Assembly (NCBI GenBank): GCA_030605345.1
Contig: JAUWIN010000010.1
Location: forward strand, 1-42,807
Source of the DNA: Candidatus Brocadiia bacterium
Lineage (GTDB): Bacteria > Planctomycetota > PUPC01
Direction: 5' to 3'
DNA length: 42,807 bases
Both the position numbers and the translations under genes were made by a program. This document shows, in pieces, positions 6,023 through 23,292 of the stretch (within the stretch, counting starts at the first letter, position 1; each line of letters opens with the position of its first letter). Below the pieces are notes generated by a model. That model did no database searches, was not told the origin of the DNA, and saw nothing but the letters and a program-made list of their open reading frames with translations.

Positions 6023-7978
6023 TCAGGGAGCAGCGGGCGTCTGAAGACGGAGCATTCCTTCTGGTACGGGGCGCAGGGGCGCCGCCCGGACCTCGAACTG
6101 AGTGTCTTCTATGAGGGTGGTCTCGAGGGTGTGGTTTCGGAGCCCCATGTTTTCGTTGCGGTGGCGGAGTTCGGAGCCGCGCTTGCTGAGCACGTTGGCG
6201 TCGCCGTGCTCGTCGAGGATCAGGTAGGCGCCGCGGCTGCCGCCGCCCAGTTCGATGCACCGCTTTATCGTCTCGAAGAAGGCGATCTGCGCCAGGCACA
6301 ACAGTTCGTTGTTCACTGCGGCCACAAACTGGTTCGCCCTGGACAACTGTTGTCCGTCGGTCTTAAGTGAATCGTAGAGGTTTCGCGCCTGTTGCGTCGC
6401 CTCGGTCAGCGCTTTTACGCTCCGTATCATCGCGCCGCACGAGCTGGTACGGTTCTGGATTTCGTTCCGCACTGCTTTGACCGAAGGTGCCTCTATGGGG
6501 CCGTAAACGTATCGTTGCATGTTGGCAATTTCGGCCTCGAGCTCCGGTTGTGCGGCCACCATAAACGAGTCCACCGGTCTTGGCGCCTGGTCGTAGTTAT
6601 TGGCAATGTATTCCGCTGCTCGGAGGCCGCCGACCTGGCCGGCGTTGAGTTCGGCTCCCTCGGGCGGGTTGCCGTGGGTGCAGGCCAAGTCTCCGACGGC
6701 GAACAGGTGCGGCACAGTGGTCTCCCACCAGATGTTGACGCTGAGCCCGCCGAACGTATCTTCGGCGCAAATGGTGATTTCCTGTGGCTCCCGCAGGTCG
6801 GTCCCGTGGTCGATCAGGGTGTCGATTTTCTCCGGGTCGAGTCGGTGGAGCCGGTCGAACGGGGTGAACTCCTGTGCGGTGTTCTTTTCGAGGAACTCAC
6901 GGGCCTCGGGCTCCAGTTGCGAGATGTTAAACTGGCCAATTTTTTCGCCCTTGACGTTCTGTGAGAAGTCAACAAACACCCGCCGCCCGGCGGCCGTCTC
7001 GTTATATACAGCGATGTCGATGAGCGATGGGCCCATGTTCTGGAGCTGCGGCGCGGAGAACGCCCAATGTTTTCCCTTCAAGAAGATGGCCGACGCGATT
7101 TGCTTGGTAGCGTGGAAGTAGTCGGCCAAAAAAGCCTTCCGGTCCCGGCCACCCTGGCTGCCGCTGTAATAGCAGGGGATGACGAACTGGTAATTTCCCC
7201 GGAGCGGTTTCCGGGTCTTGGTCAGTGCAAGCCCAAAACGCGTCTCGGTGAGGTTCGATGCCGCGGCGCCCGCCTTGAGCGCGATAGCATGGCTGCACGG
7301 GCAATTGGTCGGATACAGGCTGTGCTTGAACAATGCCTGCGGCCCGCCGGTCGCCATGATGATGTTGCGGCAGTTAAACACCACCAGTGCTTCGGCAGGG
7401 TTTGACGTTTTCAGGAGGTCAACTGCCAGCGCCCCGACCACGGTTCGGTTTTCGTCCTCACTGTCCACCAGCAGCGCTACGACTTGGTGTCGATTGAATA
7501 TCTTCGCCTTGTTTTGTTTCACCCGCCGCAGCGATGTTTCCGCCATCAGGGCGGAGGTCTGCGGGCCAGCTGAGGCCAGACGGTTCTTCTCGCCGTTGGC
7601 TACGTAACGGCCGTATTTGTCGCGGGGAAACGGGACACCGTTGCGAACCAGGTGGAGGAATTCGGGAATGGAGTTGACCGCTTCCACGTAGGCCAGGTCG
7701 CCGTGTGTCATTCCGCCTTCGGCGAGGGTGTCGGCGAAGGCTGTGGGTGAGTCCGGCCGGTCCCACCACATGCCCATGCGGTAGTAAGCTGATTTAGCCG
7801 ATGCAGGGTCGGCGGACGCTCCCCCGGTCGAATCCGTGACGATGGCGAAATCCTCGTGCCCCAACTCGTGAAGGTGTTCGGCTGCGTTCAACCCGGCGGC
7901 GCCGGCGCCGATGATGATGGTTTTCACAGAGTGGACAGTCAGTTCCACGCCGCCAACGGTTCGTTTGGATGTCTCCAT
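6023..7978 (-). CDS. FAD-dependent fumarate reductase/succinate dehydrogenase-like flavoprotein
   Basis: A 651-residue protein with the dinucleotide-binding fingerprint IIIGAGAAGLNAAEHL near residues 21-36, a second FAD-contact segment IIMATGGPQALF in the middle, and the FAVGDLACTHGNPPEGAELNAGQVGG block near residue 450 that is typical of the fumarate reductase/aspartate oxidase/adenylylsulfate reductase flavoprotein superfamily. The C-terminal third is helical, as the capping part of that superfamily is. No iron-sulfur partner subunit is adjacent, so the electron partner and substrate are unknown. Start: ATG 7978 with GAGGAG 5 nt upstream. The 118-nt gap before it (7979-8096) holds no gene; a poor TTGACG/TACTGT pair with a 19-nt spacer is the only promoter-like feature there. 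Confidence 0.8.
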   Translation of the reverse strand: METSKRTVGGVELTVHSVKTIIIGAGAAGLNAAEHLHELGHEDFAIVTDSTGGASADPASAKSAYYRMGMWWDRPDSPTAFADTLAEGGMTHGDLAYVEAVNSIPEFLHLVRNGVPFPRDKYGRYVANGEKNRLASAGPQTSALMAETSLRRVKQNKAKIFNRHQVVALLVDSEDENRTVVGALAVDLLKTSNPAEALVVFNCRNIIMATGGPQALFKHSLYPTNCPCSHAIALKAGAAASNLTETRFGLALTKTRKPLRGNYQFVIPCYYSGSQGGRDRKAFLADYFHATKQIASAIFLKGKHWAFSAPQLQNMGPSLIDIAVYNETAAGRRVFVDFSQNVKGEKIGQFNISQLEPEAREFLEKNTAQEFTPFDRLHRLDPEKIDTLIDHGTDLREPQEITICAEDTFGGLSVNIWWETTVPHLFAVGDLACTHGNPPEGAELNAGQVGGLRAAEYIANNYDQAPRPVDSFMVAAQPELEAEIANMQRYVYGPIEAPSVKAVRNEIQNRTSSCGAMIRSVKALTEATQQARNLYDSLKTDGQQLSRANQFVAAVNNELLCLAQIAFFETIKRCIELGGGSRGAYLILDEHGDANVLSKRGSELRHRNENMGLRNHTLETTLIEDTQFEVRAAPLRPVPEGMLRLQTPAAP

Positions 7979-15459: not shown

Positions 15460-15987
15460 ATGACGATGAAGATTGCCGTCCCCAGTTTGTCGCCGGGTAG
15501 TCAGGTTTTGACCTCCGTTTCGCCACCGGCGGAGTATGGCAGGCCTGCTGCGATGTCCGGCCTGGATTTCTGCGGAACCATTGATGTAAGAGCGGCGGTG
15601 AACAAGATGGGTGAGGAGCTCTTCGTGAGCGCCACGGTGAACGCCACGGTGAGGATGGAGTGCGCCCGGTGCCTGGAGCAGTTCGAAATGCCGCTCACGG
15701 CGAGTTTCGAGGCCCTGTATGCCCCTGATTCCGGGCAGGGTGCGGCCGCTCAGCTGTCGCGCCGCACCGGCCGCGAGGACGAGAAGGTCATCTACTACCA
15801 AAGCGGCATAGTGGACCTTGCGGAGCAGGTTATCGAGGCGGCCTTGCTGGCCGCGCCGATGAAGCCGCTCTGCCGGCCGGACTGCAGGGGCATCTGCCCA
15901 ACCTGCGGCAAGAACCTCAACCGGGGTTCCTGTGACTGCGAAAGCGGCCGAGATTTCAACAGGCCGTTCAAGGGGCTGTTCGGGTAA
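15460..15987 (+). CDS. YceD/DUF177-family protein
   Basis: A 175-residue DUF177 protein. It has the central MECARCLEQFEMPL segment (residues about 66-79) and a C-terminal cysteine cluster CRPDCRGICPTCGKNLNRG-CDC, typical of the family, which in many bacteria sits directly before rpmF (ribosomal protein L32) and is tied to rRNA synthesis. Here no rpmF follows. The last codons (15952-15983) are repeated exactly at 19229-19260, where they would read on to end in GLFGGGG rather than the present GLFG. So the present stop is supplied by inserted DNA. Start: ATG 15460 or 15466; the ribosome-binding site is weak. It lies 18 nt after the glycosyltransferase. Confidence 0.85.
   Translation: MTMKIAVPSLSPGSQVLTSVSPPAEYGRPAAMSGLDFCGTIDVRAAVNKMGEELFVSATVNATVRMECARCLEQFEMPLTASFEALYAPDSGQGAAAQLSRRTGREDEKVIYYQSGIVDLAEQVIEAALLAAPMKPLCRPDCRGICPTCGKNLNRGSCDCESGRDFNRPFKGLFG
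15952..15983 (+). repeat. Left 32-nt direct repeat (attL-like)
   Basis: A 32-nt sequence at the 3' end of yceD is identical to 19229-19260. Flanking bases differ at once on both sides (A against C before, G against A after), so the match is sharply bounded. It is proposed as one of the two junctions of an inserted element. Confidence 0.85.
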
Positions 15988-16160
15988 TTCGGGGGACGCA
16001 TGCGTATTTATTGTTTGACAGTGCCGTCTGTGTTTGACGGGGTTGTTTGTGGAGGTATAATTTCGTCATGCTAATGACTTGTTCGCGCCGTCATGACTGA
16101 TGCCACACTTCCTGTGTTACAGTTCTGAGCTCAGCCGAACGGAAAACTGCATAATAGACA
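15988..16160 (+). repeat. Island edge repeat A, carrying the kinase promoter
   Basis: This region is an imperfect direct copy of 19014-19190. Shared landmarks in order are a TTCGGGG-ACGCA start, CGTATTT, TTTGAC, a TATA-box hexamer, CGTCATGC and CTCAGCCGAACGG near the end. Over the core promoter part about 31 of 39 positions agree. Copy A has about 20 extra bases with a second TTGAC and a perfect palindrome ACGCATGCGT at 15996-16005. Confidence 0.6.
16034..16061 (+). promoter_or_regulatory. Promoter of the island kinase operon
   Basis: TTGACG (16034-16039) and TATAAT (16056-16061) are 16 nt apart, almost consensus. Another TTGACA is at 16015-16020. The predicted leader to the kinase ATG at 16194 is about 125 nt, long for this genome, and contains the CTCAGCCGAACGG block shared with the other island edge. 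Confidence 0.7.
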
Positions 16161-16193
16161 CATCTTGAGAAGGAGATTTGCAGGAATTGCTCG

Positions 16194-17072
16194 ATGAAAA
16201 ATAAACCCGATCTTTCTAAAGTCGCTGCCCTTATTCCCAAGGCAATCAACCTACAAGAGATTGCTTTTGGCGGATTCAAGGTGGTCTATAGAGCGCAGAT
16301 TGATGAGACGACCGAGGCCATCAAACTGGTTCGCCTCCCGAACGACACGGAAGAAATCAGGGATGAAAGCCTGCGGCGCATTCAGCGGGAAATCAACATC
16401 TTGCGAGAGTGCGATACGCCTTGTCTTGTGAAACTCGGAAGCATTGCTCCGGGATCTCACGTTATCGGTGATGATACCTACGTCCTGTATTCTGAAGAGT
16501 ACCTTCCGGGAGTATCACTGCGTGAGAGAGTCATTGAGGGCTGTCGGCCCTCTGCCGCGGAACTTGCCGAAGTCGGTCTTTGCATTCTGAGCGCAATCAC
16601 GGAGTTGACCCGAAAGGGCGTGATTCATCGCGACATTAAACCTGACAATGTTATGCAAACCGGGCTGCGGGACCGGCCATACGTGCTATTGGATTTGGGC
16701 ATTGCTTTTCAGGTCGGTGGAACACCGCTCACGCGCGATTCCGCGCATATACCCGGCACACTTTACTATATTGCCCCAGAGATGCTCGATACTGGTTTTC
16801 GCCATAATCTTGACAGTCGGGCTGATCTTTACACTTTGGGGCTTACGCTTTATGAGTATGCCTCAGGCAAGAACCCGTTCAAGGATCGGTCTGATCCGCA
16901 GTTCACAACGCTTTATCGTATCAAAACCATAACGCCAGAGTCGCTGCGCAAACTCCGGTCAGACCTGCCAAAGGAATTCTGCGATCTTGTCGATCAACTG
17001 ATGAAAAAACTGCCTGCCCTACGACCATCGAACATGGCGGTGTTAGCCAAGCGCTTGGAGAGATTGAAATGA
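16194..17072 (+). CDS. Hanks-type serine/threonine protein kinase (island cargo)
   Basis: A 292-residue, single-domain soluble kinase with all main catalytic elements. AIK puts the ATP-anchoring lysine at K44 with E66 in the following helix; HRDIKPDN spans 145-152 with catalytic D147 and N152; the magnesium motif reads DLG (167-169) rather than DFG; IAPE is at 193-196 and DLYTLG at 211-216. The glycine-rich loop is short and unusual (AFGGFKVVY, 24-32). No membrane segment, sensor or PASTA domain is present, so it is probably cytoplasmic and controlled by a partner. GAGAAGGAG at 16167-16175 is 18 nt from the ATG, rather far. It overlaps the next gene in an ATGA junction (17069-17072), which argues for a joint function. 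Confidence 0.9.
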   Translation: MKNKPDLSKVAALIPKAINLQEIAFGGFKVVYRAQIDETTEAIKLVRLPNDTEEIRDESLRRIQREINILRECDTPCLVKLGSIAPGSHVIGDDTYVLYSEEYLPGVSLRERVIEGCRPSAAELAEVGLCILSAITELTRKGVIHRDIKPDNVMQTGLRDRPYVLLDLGIAFQVGGTPLTRDSAHIPGTLYYIAPEMLDTGFRHNLDSRADLYTLGLTLYEYASGKNPFKDRSDPQFTTLYRIKTITPESLRKLRSDLPKEFCDLVDQLMKKLPALRPSNMAVLAKRLERLK

Positions 17073-18250
17073 GACTTTACGCTCAAGTTGGTTTCGGCTT
17101 GGGAGACAAGCTCAACAAGGGATTCAAGGAAAACCTCATCGACGGCGCAATCTTTAGCCCAAAGGATCTCAAACGAGATACGATGAAAGATAAGATTGCC
17201 GAGATACGCAAAGGCTTCCCCAAAGCTGATATTCTGATAGACCCGCAGTTCTATGTTAGCCTGTTTTCCGGGTCTCCCAGTGTTAGCCTGGGACGACTCA
17301 CGGAATGGAATTATTTTCGCAAGTATCGAAAGGGAGATTTAGAGCAGGCGAAGAATGTCCGCGAAGTTCTAAGGAGGTGCCTCCAAGGTATGGCGGAACT
17401 GGATGTCACCGGTCTTATCTCTCCGAACATTTACATCTCTCAATCCTTTGATTCGCGTGAGGCCGTAATTGCCAAGACCTTCCTGCGTGAGGCGGCTGAT
17501 GTTTACGCTGGTCTTGGCGAGGAAAGGCCTCTGTACGCCAGCTTGGTAATTTGTCGTGAGGCATTACAGGATCGTCGGGAGTTTGAGGAATTCATCAACG
17601 ACATTACTATGCTGGATTCTCCGCCGGACGGTATCTACCTCGTTATTGCAGGTCGCGCGTCTGAGGCCAGGTCCGATTTTTTCCACACCGATGTTTTGGC
17701 AAACTGGATGCTCCTCAACCTGTCTCTTTCAATCAATGGGCTAAAGGTAATCAACGGTTATTCGGATATCGTGACACCGCTTCTTGGCGTGGCGGGAGGC
17801 GCGGCTGGGGCCACGGGCTGGTGGTCGAATCTGCGCATGTTTTCGATGGACAGGTTTTTCCCGGGAGAAGGGGGAAGGCAGCCGATAACACGCTACCTCA
17901 GCAATCTTCTTTTGAACCGAATTGCCTGTTCCGAGAAGGACGCTAGCCCTCCATTTGTGCCCGGAATCATCAATAAGTTGTCTCATGATACCGACTACGA
18001 TCCGGAGCCGGAGCGGGCAATCGAAGTCTTGCAGTCATGGCAAGCACTTCGAGCTCTGAACGCGCAAATCGTCACAGAGGACATGGCCGAGGGAATGGGC
18101 AGATTCCGGCAGGCGATCGAACAAGCCAGGCAAGCCTATGCGTCCATTGCTGCCGAAGGCCTGCAATTGGACCCAAAATCCAGGGACGACCACCTCGCGC
18201 CTTTGGCGGAAGCGCTACGTCAATTCGAAGAACGGGCGGAACTATCGTGA
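17069..18250 (+). CDS. Unknown 393-aa protein coupled to the island kinase
   Basis: I recognise no family. The protein is soluble, without signal peptide, membrane segment or cysteine cluster. An N-terminal part (residues 1-60) begins RLYAQVGFGLGD and has IDGAIFSPKDL and ADILIDPQFY, followed by alternating strand-helix units up to about residue 270, which could be a TIM-barrel-like fold (DGIYLVIAG, GLKVINGY, PLLGVAGGAAGATGWWSNLR). The glycine-rich GVAGGAAGATGWW near 235 is the best candidate active-site or ligand loop. The last 100 residues are helical and charged. The start overlaps the kinase stop, so the two are co-translated; it may be the kinase's substrate or sensor. Its 3' end overlaps the convergent nuclease gene by 9 nt. 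Confidence 0.75.
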   Translation: MRLYAQVGFGLGDKLNKGFKENLIDGAIFSPKDLKRDTMKDKIAEIRKGFPKADILIDPQFYVSLFSGSPSVSLGRLTEWNYFRKYRKGDLEQAKNVREVLRRCLQGMAELDVTGLISPNIYISQSFDSREAVIAKTFLREAADVYAGLGEERPLYASLVICREALQDRREFEEFINDITMLDSPPDGIYLVIAGRASEARSDFFHTDVLANWMLLNLSLSINGLKVINGYSDIVTPLLGVAGGAAGATGWWSNLRMFSMDRFFPGEGGRQPITRYLSNLLLNRIACSEKDASPPFVPGIINKLSHDTDYDPEPERAIEVLQSWQALRALNAQIVTEDMAEGMGRFRQAIEQARQAYASIAAEGLQLDPKSRDDHLAPLAEALRQFEERAELS

Positions 18251-18820
18251 GGCAGCATGGGCAACAGTTGCAAGTGCGCGCTCACTGTATTTGGCGATCA
18301 TCTGACGGCGCGGACGGGGAGTGTAGATACTCTTGACAGTTCCGGTAGTGAAATCAAATCCCCAAAGTCCGACGCGAAGTGTCTGAAAGAGATCGAGGTG
18401 CTCTCTAATGACTTTTAACTTGGCTTGGGGCACGACTAAGACAGCGACATGAGAGAAATATTTGTATCGATGGGCTTGCATCAGGCCTCCGCGCCAATTG
18501 GAGAGCTTGACCTCAAAAGCACGGATAATGGGCTTCGCCTGCGTGAGATCAAAATTGGCCTTGTTCCGAGGGGCTTTGCCACGGGCCCAGTTCAAGACGA
18601 CCAGGTCGGCAATACCGTTGCCATGGACACGTACTTCACGAACGAATAGTGTCTGTTCCCGGGTCGTTCCTGAATGGATTTGGCAAAAACGTTGCTGATA
18701 GGATCGGGAAAATTTGTCGGTAAATTCAGCTTCTGGTGCAGAAATATGGCTGCCAGAGGTCTGGAGGTTTTGCTGAGGATGGTGCAAGTCGCAGGTGTGA
18801 ATCGACGCCGTATCCAACAT
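18242..18820 (-). CDS. PD-(D/E)XK superfamily nuclease-like protein (island cargo)
   Basis: A 192-residue protein from the ATG at 18820, which has AGAAGGAG 10 nt upstream; a longer frame to 18913 lacks this. Residues 70-75 GIADLV give the motif aspartate D72, and AFEVK at 101-105 gives E103 and K105, the D...ExK core. QAHRY at 115-119 supplies the Q-x3-Y element common in RecB-like nucleases. An N-terminal region of about 55 residues has no recognised domain. The residues needed for metal-dependent cleavage are present, so an active DNA or RNA nuclease is likely. It faces the kinase operon tail to tail with a 9-nt overlap, and follows a small frame by 5 nt. Confidence 0.75.
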   Translation of the reverse strand: MLDTASIHTCDLHHPQQNLQTSGSHISAPEAEFTDKFSRSYQQRFCQIHSGTTREQTLFVREVRVHGNGIADLVVLNWARGKAPRNKANFDLTQAKPIIRAFEVKLSNWRGGLMQAHRYKYFSHVAVLVVPQAKLKVIREHLDLFQTLRVGLWGFDFTTGTVKSIYTPRPRRQMIAKYSERALATVAHAASR

Positions 18821-18825
18821 TTGGT

Positions 18826-19119
18826 TTATTCTCCTTCTGGTTTTCTCAATATAAACATCATAAGGATCCGCGTTGGGTATTGCAACAATGATGGCTCTTC
18901 GTAATCGTTCCAAAGATTGTGTGATATTTTTTCAAGCACAAGCGGTTTGGCAACTTCAAAGCGTTCGCCGAAACTCAGACGGCTGCCATCAAGCCGATAA
19001 CCCTGATCTTCCTGTTCGGGGAGACGCAATACGTATTTGGTTTTTGACAGGGCTGTACGTGGGGGTATAGTATCGTCATGCCGAGCTTTGCTCGAGTCGT
19101 GAGGCCGGATGTTCCTCAC
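18826..19119 (-). CDS. Small frame coupled to the nuclease; possibly a 5'-truncated gene
   Basis: An open frame of up to 97 codons ends 5 nt before the nuclease ATG, and its last codons contain the nuclease ribosome-binding site, which is the usual geometry of a real upstream gene. The plausible coding part is the C-terminal 70 residues (from about YVLRLPEQED onward); no family is recognised. The N-terminal third lies inside edge repeat B (19014-19190), starts with GTG and has no ribosome-binding site, so the natural 5' end may have been cut off when the repeat was joined. The nuclease would then lack its original promoter. It may instead be non-coding. Confidence 0.4.
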   Translation of the reverse strand: MRNIRPHDSSKARHDDTIPPRTALSKTKYVLRLPEQEDQGYRLDGSRLSFGERFEVAKPLVLEKISHNLWNDYEEPSLLQYPTRILMMFILRKPEGE

Positions 19120-19190
19120 CCCCTTACCCAGCGGGCCTCGGCCATGAGCTCGCAGCCGAATGGCTCAGCCGAACGGGAAACCGCCGATCT
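19014..19190 (+). repeat. Island edge repeat B, promoter-bearing and facing groEL
   Basis: This is the second, diverged copy of the 15988-16160 region in the same orientation. It keeps TTCGGGG-ACGCA, CGTATTT, TTTGACA, TATAGT, CGTCATGC and CTCAGCCGAACGG in the same order. The core pair TTGACA (19044-19049) and TATAGT (19066-19071), spaced 16 nt, is a good promoter pointing out of the island toward groEL. Downstream of this repeat to 19200 I see no gene. Confidence 0.6.
19044..19071 (+). promoter_or_regulatory. Outward-facing promoter at the right island edge
   Basis: TTGACA (19044-19049), a 16-nt spacer and TATAGT (19066-19071). No island gene lies downstream on this strand, so a transcript from here would cross the right repeat and run toward groEL at 19627, unless stopped by the hairpin at 19201-19227. 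Confidence 0.55.
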
Positions 19191-19200
19191 GAGTTAAGTA

Positions 19201-19227
19201 TTGCCTCCTCGGATAAACGAGAGGCAA
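19201..19227. other. Strong hairpin adjoining the right direct repeat
   Basis: TTGCCT-C-CTCG pairs with CGAG-AGGCAA around a GATAAA loop: ten base pairs with one bulged C. It ends 1 nt before the 32-nt repeat. There is no T-run after it, so it is not a standard terminator; it may be a recombination or processing structure. Confidence 0.55.
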
Positions 19228-19228
19228 C

Positions 19229-19260
19229 GATTTCAACAGGCCGTTCAAGGGGCTGTTCGG
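19229..19260 (+). repeat. Right 32-nt direct repeat (attR-like)
   Basis: Identical to 15952-15983. In the yceD frame the copy reads D-F-N-R-P-F-K-G-L-F-G and continues G-G-G to a TGA, which is probably the original end of yceD before the island entered. Confidence 0.85.
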
Positions 19261-19626: not shown

Positions 19627-21315
19627 ATGGCGAAGCAAATGGCGTTCGAGATGGAGGCCCGACAGGCGCTGCGGGACGGCGTCACCAAGTTGGCCCGAGC
19701 CGTCAAGACCACCCTGGGGCCGCGCGGCCGCAACGCAATTCTCCAGAAAAGCTGGGGCAGCCCCACAGTCACCAAAGACGGCGTTACTGTGGCTGAAGAG
19801 ATTGAACTCCAGGACAAGTATCAGAACCTGGCCGTCCAGATGGTCAAGGAGGCGGCATCGAAGACCAGTGACGTCGCAGGGGACGGCACCACCACCGCGA
19901 CGGTCCTGGCGGAAGCTATGTTCCTCGAGGGACTGAAAAACACCATCGCGGGGGCTAACGCGCTTGAACTCTCGCGCGGCATGCAGCAAGCCGTTGAGGC
20001 AGTGGTTGACGAGCTAAAGAAGCTCGCCAAACCCCTGAAGGGCAAGCCCGACGTGGCAAAGGTCGCCACCATCGCCGCGAACAACGACGCCGAAGTCGGC
20101 AAGATGATTTCCTCCGCCTTCGACAAGGTCGGCAAGGACGGCGTCATAACCGTGGAGGAAGGGAAGTCCTCTGAAACCGACGTAGAGGTCGTGGAGGGGA
20201 TGCAGTGCGACCGCGGCTATCTCTCGCCTCGTTTCGTTACCAACCAGGAATCGATGGAGGTTGACCTCCGCGAGCCGTTCGTCCTGATCTACGAGGACAA
20301 GATTGCGGCGGCGCGGGACCTTGTGCCAGTGATGGAGAAGATAAGCCAGGCGGGCAAGCCGCTGGTCATCATCGCCGAGACCGTGGAGGGCGACGCACTC
20401 GCCACACTGGTGGTCAACAAACTGCGCGGCGTTCTCCAGTGCGCCGCCGTCAAGGCGCCCGGCTACGGTGACCGACGCAAGGCCATGCTGGGCGACAGCG
20501 CCGCGCGCACCGGCGGCAGGGCGATCTACAAGGACCTCGGCATCAAGCTCGAGAGCATCTCACTCGATGACTTCGGCCGGGCGAAACGCGTGCTCATCGA
20601 CAAGGACAACACCACCATCGTCGAAGGAGCCGGTGACTCCGCCGAGATAAGCGGCCGGGCCAAGCAAATCCGCTCTGAAATGGAAACCACCACCAGCGAC
20701 TACGACAAGGAGAAACTCCAAGAGCGCCTGGCCAAAATCGCGGGCGGCGTGGCGCAGGTCAATGTCGGCGCCGCCACCGAAAGTGAAATGAAGGAGAAAA
20801 AGGCACGGGTCGAGGACGCTATCCACGCTACCCGAGCCGCTGTGGAGGAAGGGATTGTACCGGGCGGCGGCGTCGCACTTATCCGCGCCGCATCGGCGCT
20901 GGATTCGCTGAAACTTACCGGCGATGCAGCCACAGGAGCAGAAATCGTCAGGAAAGCCCTCTCCCGCCCGCTGTATTACATTGCCGAAAACGCCGGCAAA
21001 GCCGGCAGCATCGTCGTTGATAAGGTGACGAAGGCCAAGGGCGCAAACGGCTACGATGCAACCGCCGGAAAATACTGCGACCTGGTCGAAGAGGGAATAG
21101 TGGACCCAGCCAAGGTCGTCCGATCGGCACTGCAGAACGCCGTCAGCGTGGCGACCGTCCTCGTCCTCAGCGACTGCCTGATTACCGAGAAACCCAAGGA
21201 GGAAGAGGAAGAACCCGCTCCCGGCGCCGGCGGCATGGGCGGCATGGGTGGCGGCATGCCCGGCGGTGGCATGGGTGGCATGGGCGGCATGGGCGGCATG
21301 GGTGGCATGATGTAA
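19627..21315 (+). CDS. groEL: Chaperonin GroEL, copy 1 (with GGM tail)
   Basis: A 562-residue chaperonin, slightly longer than the usual 545. ATP-binding motifs [11 protein letters not shown] (residues 28-38) and [12 protein letters not shown] are present, as are the [16 protein letters not shown] and [10 protein letters not shown]-terminal segments. It ends in a long Gly-Gly-Met repeat tail, the flexible tail that lines the folding chamber in canonical GroEL. The N-terminus [12 protein letters not shown] is a little divergent. GAGGAGG precedes the ATG with an 11-nt spacing. It is the first gene of the chaperone string and lies upstream of groES, the reverse of the usual order. With its tail it is likely to be the main housekeeping copy, which is inference. 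Confidence 0.95.
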
Positions 21316-21370
21316 GCGCTGAATAACTTTCGGTGTTCGAAATATCTGGGAAACAGGAGGATAGCGAAAC

Positions 21371-21658
21371 ATGACAGTAAAACCGCTCGATGACAGGGTG
21401 TTGATCGAGGTGTTGGAGGCGGAGTCGAAGACCGCAGGCGGAATCGTCCTGCCGGACACCGCCAAGGAGAAGCCCCAGAAGGGCAAGGTAATCGCTGTCG
21501 GGCCGGGCCGGCCGCTCGAATCAGGTAAGCGCGCCAAACCCGAGATGAAGAAGGGCGACATTGTGTTGTTTTCCAAATACGGCGGCGACGAGGTCGAGGT
21601 GGGCGAAAAGGACTGTCGAATTATCAAAGAAAACGACATACTCGCAATCCTGGAATAA
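21371..21658 (+). CDS. groES: Co-chaperonin GroES
   Basis: A 95-residue GroES of normal length with the N-terminal signature [26 protein letters not shown] (residues 3-28), where residues about 17-32 form the mobile loop that docks on GroEL, and the closing [21 protein letters not shown] lies 9 nt before the ATG. It sits between two groEL genes, 55 nt after the first and 17 nt before the second, so one GroES probably serves both rings. Confidence 0.96.
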
Positions 21659-21675
21659 GAAGGAGGCACCTCTAA

Positions 21676-23292
21676 ATGGCCAACGCGAAACAATTGATGT
21701 ATGACGACGAGGCCCGCCGCCAGATCCTGACCGGTGTGGAGAAGCTCGCCAGAGCAGTCAAGGTCACGCTGGGTCCTACCGGCGGCAACGTCATTTTGGA
21801 CAAGAGTTGGGGCTCCCCCAAGGTCACGAAGGACGGCGTCACCGTGGCCAAAGACATCGAACTCGAAGGCCCTTTCGAGAGCATGGGCGCCAAGCTCCTG
21901 CAGGAGGCGGCGAACAAGACCAGCGACGATGCCGGCGACGGCACCACCACGGCAACCGTCCTCGCCGAGGCCATTTTCAAGGAAGGCTTGAAGATGGTTA
22001 CCGCTGGCGCTGACCCCATGGCCCTGAAGCGCGGCATTGACAAGGCCGTCGAGGCCGCCCAAACGGCCGTCACCGACGCCGCAACCCCGGTCAAGGACAG
22101 GGAGCGCACCGTACAGGTGGGCGCCGTCTCCGCCAACAACGACCCATTCATCGGCGGCCTCATCGCCGACGCCATGGAGAAGGTGGGCAAGGACGGCGTG
22201 GTCACGGTCGAGGAAGGCAAGACCATGGAAACCACGCTGGATGTGGTGGAAGGAATGCGCTTCGACAAGGGCTACGTATCGCCCTACTTCATCACCAACG
22301 TCGAGACACTCGAAGCCGTCCTCGAAGAACCCCTCATCCTGCTGCACGAGAAGAAGATCAGCAACCTCCGCGAGTTCGTCCCGCTGCTGGAAAAGGTGGT
22401 GAACGCGGGCAAGTCGCTGCTCATAATTGCGGAAGACCTCGAGGGCGAAGCGCTTGCAGGACTCGTGGTTAACAAACTCCGCGGCGTCTGCAAATCCTGC
22501 GCCGTCAAGGCCCCCGGCTTCGGCGACCGGAGGAAGGCCATGCTCGAGGACCTCGCCATCGTGACCAACGGCTCCGTCATCTCTGAGGACCTGGGCATCA
22601 AGCTCGACTCCGTGACGCTCGACCAGTTGGGAACCGCCGAGAAAGTCACCGTCACCAAGGACCACACCACGGTGGTGAAGGGCGCCGGGAAGAAGTCCGC
22701 CATCCGGGCTCGCTGTGACCTGATCCGCCAGCACATTGAAACCACCACCTCGGACTACGACCGTGAGAAGCTCGAGGAGCGGCTCGCCAAGTTGACTGGT
22801 GGCGTGGCAGTGATCAACGTCGGCGCCGCCACAGAAACCGAGATGAAAGAGCAGAAAGCGCTGGTCGATGACGCGATGCACGCCACAAAGGCCGCGGTGG
22901 AGGAAGGCGTCGTCCCGGGTGGAGGCCTGGGGTGTCTCCGCTCCGTTCGCGCCGTCGAAGCGGCCAGGGACAATCTCCGCGGCGAGGAGAAGCTCGGTGC
23001 GGACATCGTCGCCCGCGCCCTCACGGCGCCCCTGCGACAAATTGCCGCTAACTCCGGGCTCGACGGCGATGTGGTCGTCGCTGAGGTCGAGGAAAAAGGC
23101 AAAAATGTCGGGCTCAACGCCCTCACCGGCGAGTATGTTGACCTGGTCAAGGCAGGCGTCATCGACCCGGCGAAGGTGGTCAAGACGGCCCTGGCCAACG
23201 CAGCCAGCGTTGCCGGACTGCTCCTGACAACCAACACTATGGTCGCCGAGATCAAAGGGAAAGAAGAACCAGTAGCAGAAAGCGTCTCCTGA
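21676..23292 (+). CDS. groEL: Chaperonin GroEL, copy 2 (no GGM tail)
   Basis: A 538-residue GroEL with the same ATP-site motifs ([26 protein letters not shown]) and [17 protein letters not shown]. It differs from copy 1 in its C-terminus, which ends in [12 protein letters not shown] with no Gly-Gly-Met repeats, and in many apical-domain residues. Tail loss is known in specialised GroEL paralogues, so a narrower client range is plausible. GGAGG lies 9 nt upstream of the ATG. It is followed after about 57 nt by the HEAT-repeat gene. Confidence 0.95.

Follow-up and report, generated by a model that had tools for sequence, protein, structure and literature searches.

A candidate three-gene defence module of a Hanks-type kinase, a protein of no assigned family and a PD-(D/E)XK nuclease

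Do three genes that share a small island in a Planctomycetota genome belong together, and if so, is their business defence? The question is raised by a contig of Candidatus Brocadiia bacterium (GenBank assembly GCA_030605345.1, JAUWIN010000010.1, positions 1 to 42,807; hereafter the window, meaning the whole stretch of 42,807 nucleotides that was analysed). Between yceD and groEL this contig, part of a 2.28-Mb host draft genome, contains a 3.2-kb insert of low guanine-plus-cytosine (GC) content, with genes for a Hanks-type Ser/Thr protein kinase, a 393-aa protein and a PD-(D/E)XK nuclease-like protein (Table 1). An initial annotation, made from the letters of the window, had proposed the trio as a candidate undescribed defence or stress module.

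The three genes are an evolutionarily linked unit

The 393-aa protein was first searched against 84,980 species genomes. Five loci were found, and all five contained the kinase and the nuclease with matching gene order and orientation. Profile searches of plasmids and of three genome sets (392 from the host phylum, 297 from the phylum to which a Desulfobacterales genome belongs and 125 from the Cloacimonadota phylum) brought the total to 22 loci. These come from Planctomycetota, from the phylum that includes the Desulfobacterales genome, from Cloacimonadota and from two plasmids, one betaproteobacterial and one haloarchaeal. The nuclease gene is adjacent to that of the 393-aa homologue at every locus (22/22), kinase sequence is present at 21, and all three genes are intact at 17. 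The five imperfect loci are L019 (5574-8149), where the kinase is missing; L024 (2051-4566), where just a fragment of it survives, fused to a neighbour; L021, truncated where its contig stops; and two loci with broken reading frames, L020 and L050. Deletion or assembly error may account for the kinase losses at L019 and L024. Plasmid-borne copies include that of the archaeon Natribaculum (L026) and that of Polaromonas pPNAP03 (L057), whose annotation names just 'serine/threonine-protein kinase' and 'hypothetical protein'. From the PLSDB gene table of pPNAP03, the trio's nuclease gene (6685-7194) is missing.

Pairwise protein distances over 16 loci correlated among the three proteins (r = 0.92, 0.92 and 0.89), values reached by 0/5000 permutations. 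The ratio of nonsynonymous to synonymous substitution rates between L007 and L008 was 0.12–0.17 for all three genes, which indicates purifying selection. Since kinases and PD-(D/E)XK proteins are both common, three unrelated genes might have come to share an integration site by chance; this is refuted by the 22 co-occurrences, which span several phyla and include one plasmid of an archaeon, and by the correlated distances, and we regard its probability as negligible. The initial annotation had asked for such a tally and had named, as the outcomes that would count against it, homologues that always occur singly in housekeeping contexts or genes unrelated to each other elsewhere. Both are contradicted by the 22 loci, the correlated distances and the defence contexts described below. 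We conclude that the three genes have evolved as a linked unit, that their catalytic residues are intact and that they are under purifying selection. Very probably, they also form a functional unit associated with defence.

Properties of the three proteins

The kinase was assigned by profile search (Pfam Pkinase, E 8e-33). K44, D147 of the HRD motif, N152 and D167 are intact and invariant across 14 homologues, so the window kinase has all the Hanks-type residues (N-lobe Lys, HRD Asp, Asn and DxG Asp), bearing out the claim of an intact kinase. Its top PADLOC scores were to MAD6 (E 3e-40), of the methylation-associated defence system (MADS), and to PD-T4-6 (E 9e-38), both of which have the Hanks kinase fold in common with it. 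Against the NCBIfam equivalog for MAD6, the kinase reached 70 bits where the cut-off is 460, so it does not qualify for MADS, and the MAD6 profile alignment is confined to the kinase part of the profile. Similarly, it scored 64 bits against the PglW family of NCBIfam (cut-off 990) and does not qualify as a PglW of type 2 bacteriophage exclusion (BREX). The MAD6 and PD-T4-6 matches reflect the kinase fold. PD-T4-6 is a single-gene system, whereas the module is multi-gene by context.

The 393-aa protein had been described as belonging to no recognised family and as co-translated with the kinase, and this held: no family was assigned to it in Pfam, NCBIfam, PADLOC or PHROGs, and its start at 17069 lies in the kinase stop. 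No meaningful relative of solved structure came out of sequence searches with the 393-aa protein or the nuclease. An AlphaFold model of the 393-aa protein (six-sequence input) had a predicted local distance difference test (pLDDT) score of 59. Its strand-helix order fits a triosephosphate isomerase (TIM) barrel, and the leading Foldseek matches were mostly TIM barrels (best E 0.002); a fold search against viral structures gave no match at E <= 0.001. The protein is thus probably a TIM barrel, as far as a low-confidence model can indicate. Among 15 diverse members, D58, P59, Y62, P119, G250 and F258 do not vary, which suggests a pocket. Such a pocket, and the fact that TIM barrels are mostly enzymes, would also fit a protein that modifies nucleotides, bases or sugars, paired with a nuclease that cuts unmodified DNA, the two making a modification-restriction pair governed by the kinase. 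However, no TIM-enzyme family matches the 393-aa protein by sequence, and the strictly invariant polar residues are few (D58 and Y62), thin for a catalytic centre; we consider this explanation quite improbable.

In the nuclease, E30, E62, D72, E103 and K105 are invariant in 18 homologues, and Q115 is conserved in at least 90% of them. The window protein thus has the PD-(D/E)XK catalytic pattern (D ... (D/E)xK). The core that the initial annotation had listed (D72, E103, K105 and Q115, in a gene convergent with its neighbour) was upheld, and its numbering fits an ATG at 18820; the gene start itself had to be corrected. This ATG, giving 192 aa, is the most likely start because homologues begin at the corresponding ATG, and a TTG at 18913 was rejected for the same reason. 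In several relatives, a winged-helix-like segment is inserted between D72 and E103. The nuclease model had a pLDDT of 71, and its leading Foldseek folds were XisH/fdxN-factor, AF2093 and YaeQ (best E 0.005); XisH, AF2093 and YaeQ we take to be PD-(D/E)XK folds. The profile and structure searches that had been proposed for the three proteins thus assigned the kinase and yielded a TIM-like and an XisH/AF2093/YaeQ-like model. No match to the nuclease was found in PADLOC. At L099 (6063-7594), the gene directly after a DNA methyltransferase-like one encodes a winged-helix PD-(D/E)XK protein related to the module nuclease; the two are perhaps a stand-alone restriction-modification (RM) pair.

Genomic contexts, sister loci and proposed mode of action

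We asked which genes surround the module. At L007, L008 and L049 the order is hsdM-hsdS-[module]-hsdR, with the module inside a type I restriction system, and at L006 and L020 HsdM and HsdS adjoin it. At L005 the module lies downstream of an HKD-SNF2 helicase and an HsdS-like protein. (HsdS and some HsdM labels were given by sequence likeness and gene order, not library scores.) PADLOC assigns the L053 order, pglXI-[module]-brxHII-pglZ-brxA, to type 3 BREX. The arrangement at L022 matches it, as judged by likeness rather than by library scores of the neighbouring genes. At L021 the module is followed by the phospholipase and cyclase of a cyclic-oligonucleotide-based antiphage signalling system (CBASS), at L026 a DrmMI/type IIG-like enzyme lies upstream, and at L051 a helicase that includes an MTES_1575 nuclease domain precedes the module. 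The proposal of a defence module thus gains from copies that recur in type I RM, in type 3 BREX and beside CBASS. The window copy has no HsdR, HsdM or HsdS among its neighbouring genes and is not part of a type I RM system.

The placement between hsdS and hsdR (L007, L008 and L049) and between pglXI and brxHII (L053, with L022 sharing the order) might mean that the module is an accessory of restriction or BREX, its kinase controlling restriction by phosphorylating host or RM proteins and its nuclease serving as a back-up cutter if modification is blocked. Such a role is rather unlikely in our estimate: the partner systems are mutually unrelated, and the copies of the window, L009, L023, L050 and L052 have no recognisable RM or BREX gene adjacent.

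Wide-profile searches also detected a sister system, in which distant relatives of the 393-aa protein and of the nuclease are adjacent and no kinase is present (L093, L094, L095, L098 and L100; genomes G094, G339, G358, G122 and G384, respectively). Homology of both to the module proteins is supported by profile comparison (hhalign 98.8% for the 393-aa protein and 98.8% for the nuclease), with E-values that are pairwise, not database-wide. The position of the kinase is taken by a SocA/Panacea-like protein, matched in two of the four proteins scanned, and the match is below threshold (19.7 and 17.7 bits against a curated cut-off of 25.7; Pfam E 0.002-0.007). L094, L095, L098 and L100 encode an additional small protein with hydrophobic stretches. 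Because the sister system keeps the other two proteins without the kinase, the kinase would be a replaceable switch, and the gene order suggests that the 393-aa protein and the nuclease are the core pair.

Panacea domains neutralise many toxins (PMC8832971), and a Panacea-like protein, albeit one below the curated cut-off, in place of the kinase is what might be expected if the module were an addiction or stress module of toxin-antitoxin type, in which the nuclease, perhaps with the TIM-like protein, acts as the toxin and the kinase counteracts it or sets its timing, with no specific antiphage role. But repeated insertion in RM and BREX operons exceeds the need of a toxin-antitoxin pair, and the regulator is a kinase with intact catalytic residues, not a binding antitoxin. 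We hold this alternative unlikely.

The reading we favour, as a fairly probable one, is that the island was gained by horizontal transfer and is a conserved three-gene module of antiphage type, a phosphorylation-gated nuclease acting alone or as a back-up of RM or BREX. Both the antiphage activity and the mechanism are inferred, and so is the chain of sensor, kinase relay and nuclease effector put forward in the initial annotation. The TIM-barrel-like protein and the nuclease would be the effector core, in which the former would bind a ligand or an infection-altered partner through a conserved DPQFY/GW pocket and hold the nuclease. Infection, or the failing of a partner restriction or BREX system, would activate the kinase, which would phosphorylate the TIM-like protein or the nuclease, and DNA cleavage would be released; the module could do so alone or behind a partner system. 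That the kinase is the regulator and the nuclease the effector we judge slightly better supported than the contrary, and for the TIM-like protein a role as sensor rather than enzyme is evenly balanced.

The following points weigh against the favoured reading. Several copies, including those of the window and L009, are surrounded by housekeeping genes and have no further defence gene nearby. The permutation tests leave some room for shared vertical descent as the source of the distance correlation. The TIM fold depends on a model of pLDDT 59, with a Foldseek E of 0.002 at best. Finally, no homologue was found in phages or IMG/VR; mobility on phages is therefore unsupported, and spread of the module on phages or IMG/VR viral contigs was rejected.

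How does the module relate to systems already described? It resembles PglW and DndF (PMC12839542, PMC10853773) in bringing together a PD-(D/E)XK-type nuclease domain and a Ser/Thr kinase in modification-based defence. In those, however, one large fused protein holds both domains, with a pseudo-kinase and a kinase in tandem, and a TIM protein is lacking, whereas the window module consists of three separate small proteins with a single kinase, predicted from its residues to be active. The PglW of BREX type 2, likewise, joins a NERD nuclease and a kinase in one large protein, unlike the separate 292-aa window kinase. TerY-P triads, which comprise a vWA protein, a PP2C phosphatase and a Ser/Thr kinase and occur with coiled-coil nuclease tandem (CoCoNuT) and other restriction systems (PMC11090510), are, like the module, portable kinase-based three-gene units that attach to varied restriction systems; the module has no vWA protein or phosphatase, and a nuclease and a TIM-like protein instead. 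CapK-CapS (PMC13373217) is similar in that a kinase adjoins immune operons as a regulator. The Panacea toxin-antitoxin systems (PMC8832971) resemble the sister loci, where a Panacea-like protein accompanies a TIM protein and a nuclease, but in the window module the kinase occupies the Panacea position. The composition of the module is found in none of PglW, DndF, TerY-P and CapK-CapS.

In the open-access literature, papers on TIM barrels with kinases in defence, on kinases beside hsdS and on three-gene kinase-nuclease systems do not describe the trio, and the parts of BREX, Dnd, CoCoNuT and DefensePredictor papers that were consulted hold no match to it on kinase or TIM terms. As far as searched, the module is unnamed in Pfam, NCBIfam, PADLOC, PHROGs and these papers, and to that extent 'undescribed' was apt. 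A prior description elsewhere is possible, because the literature was open-access and PADLOC was the 2023 version.

More broadly, and tentatively, the loci may represent an unnamed prokaryotic immune system of bacteria and archaea, built on a core of a new TIM-barrel family and a PD-(D/E)XK nuclease, switched by a Hanks kinase or a Panacea-like antitoxin, and found with type I RM, with type 3 BREX or alone. If so, the defence-associated systems would gain one that includes a protein family unnamed in the searched libraries. Such a system would also offer a testable example of a prokaryotic immune nuclease under phosphorylation control, a poorly understood theme of PglW and DndF, and the exchange of kinase for Panacea would show one effector core under different switches.

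Borders and composition of the island

The island was described as lower in GC and bounded by perfect direct repeats, and both features were found again. The insert has a GC content of 0.51 against 0.605 in its neighbourhood, and GC at third codon positions is 0.53-0.58 in the island genes against 0.78-0.81 in the flanking genes. Exactly one perfect repeat pair, of 32 bp, surrounds it. The reading frame through the right copy gives DFNRPFKGLFGGGG-stop, and because it runs in frame to GLFGGGG-stop, the insert lies at the extreme 3' end of yceD. Immediately inside these repeats are M and M', diverged copies that are 120-145 bp long and include a promoter-like TTGAC-N16-TATA(A/G)T; M is likely the promoter of the kinase operon. 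The chance expectation is nil for both repeat pairs (0/100 shuffles).

Table 1. Features of the island in the window
Feature	Coordinates	Strand	Remarks
Direct repeat, left copy, 32 bp, perfect	15952..15983	+	At yceD 3' end
Left border module M	16030..16150	+	Promoter-like TTGACG-N16-TATAAT; diverged counterpart at 19040-19184
Hanks-type Ser/Thr protein kinase, 292 aa, no extra domain	16194..17072	+	Pfam Pkinase E 8e-33
393-aa protein, no known family, probable TIM barrel	17069..18250	+	ATGA overlap with kinase stop
PD-(D/E)XK nuclease-like protein, 192 aa	18242..18820	-	Convergent with 393-aa gene, 9-bp 3' overlap
Right border module M'	19040..19184	+	Diverged M copy; promoter-like TTGACA-N16-TATAGT
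Direct repeat, right copy, 32 bp, perfect	19229..19260	+	In frame to likely native yceD end

A Phage_integrase search of the whole genome found no integrase gene on the window contig; matches were clear on contigs 35 and 68 (tyrosine recombinases) and weak on contig 48. The integration history is therefore inferred, as is the status of the site as an integration site, and the island would have been acquired horizontally. Elsewhere in the host genome, M and M' had weak short matches at most. The element order, repeat-M-cargo-M'-repeat, hints at a composite cassette. A 97-aa open reading frame upstream of the nuclease (18826-19119) had no match in the related loci compared at that stage and was rejected as a fourth module gene. 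Beyond the island, at 19627-23292, one groES lies between two groEL paralogues, of which one has a GGM-rich tail and the other none.

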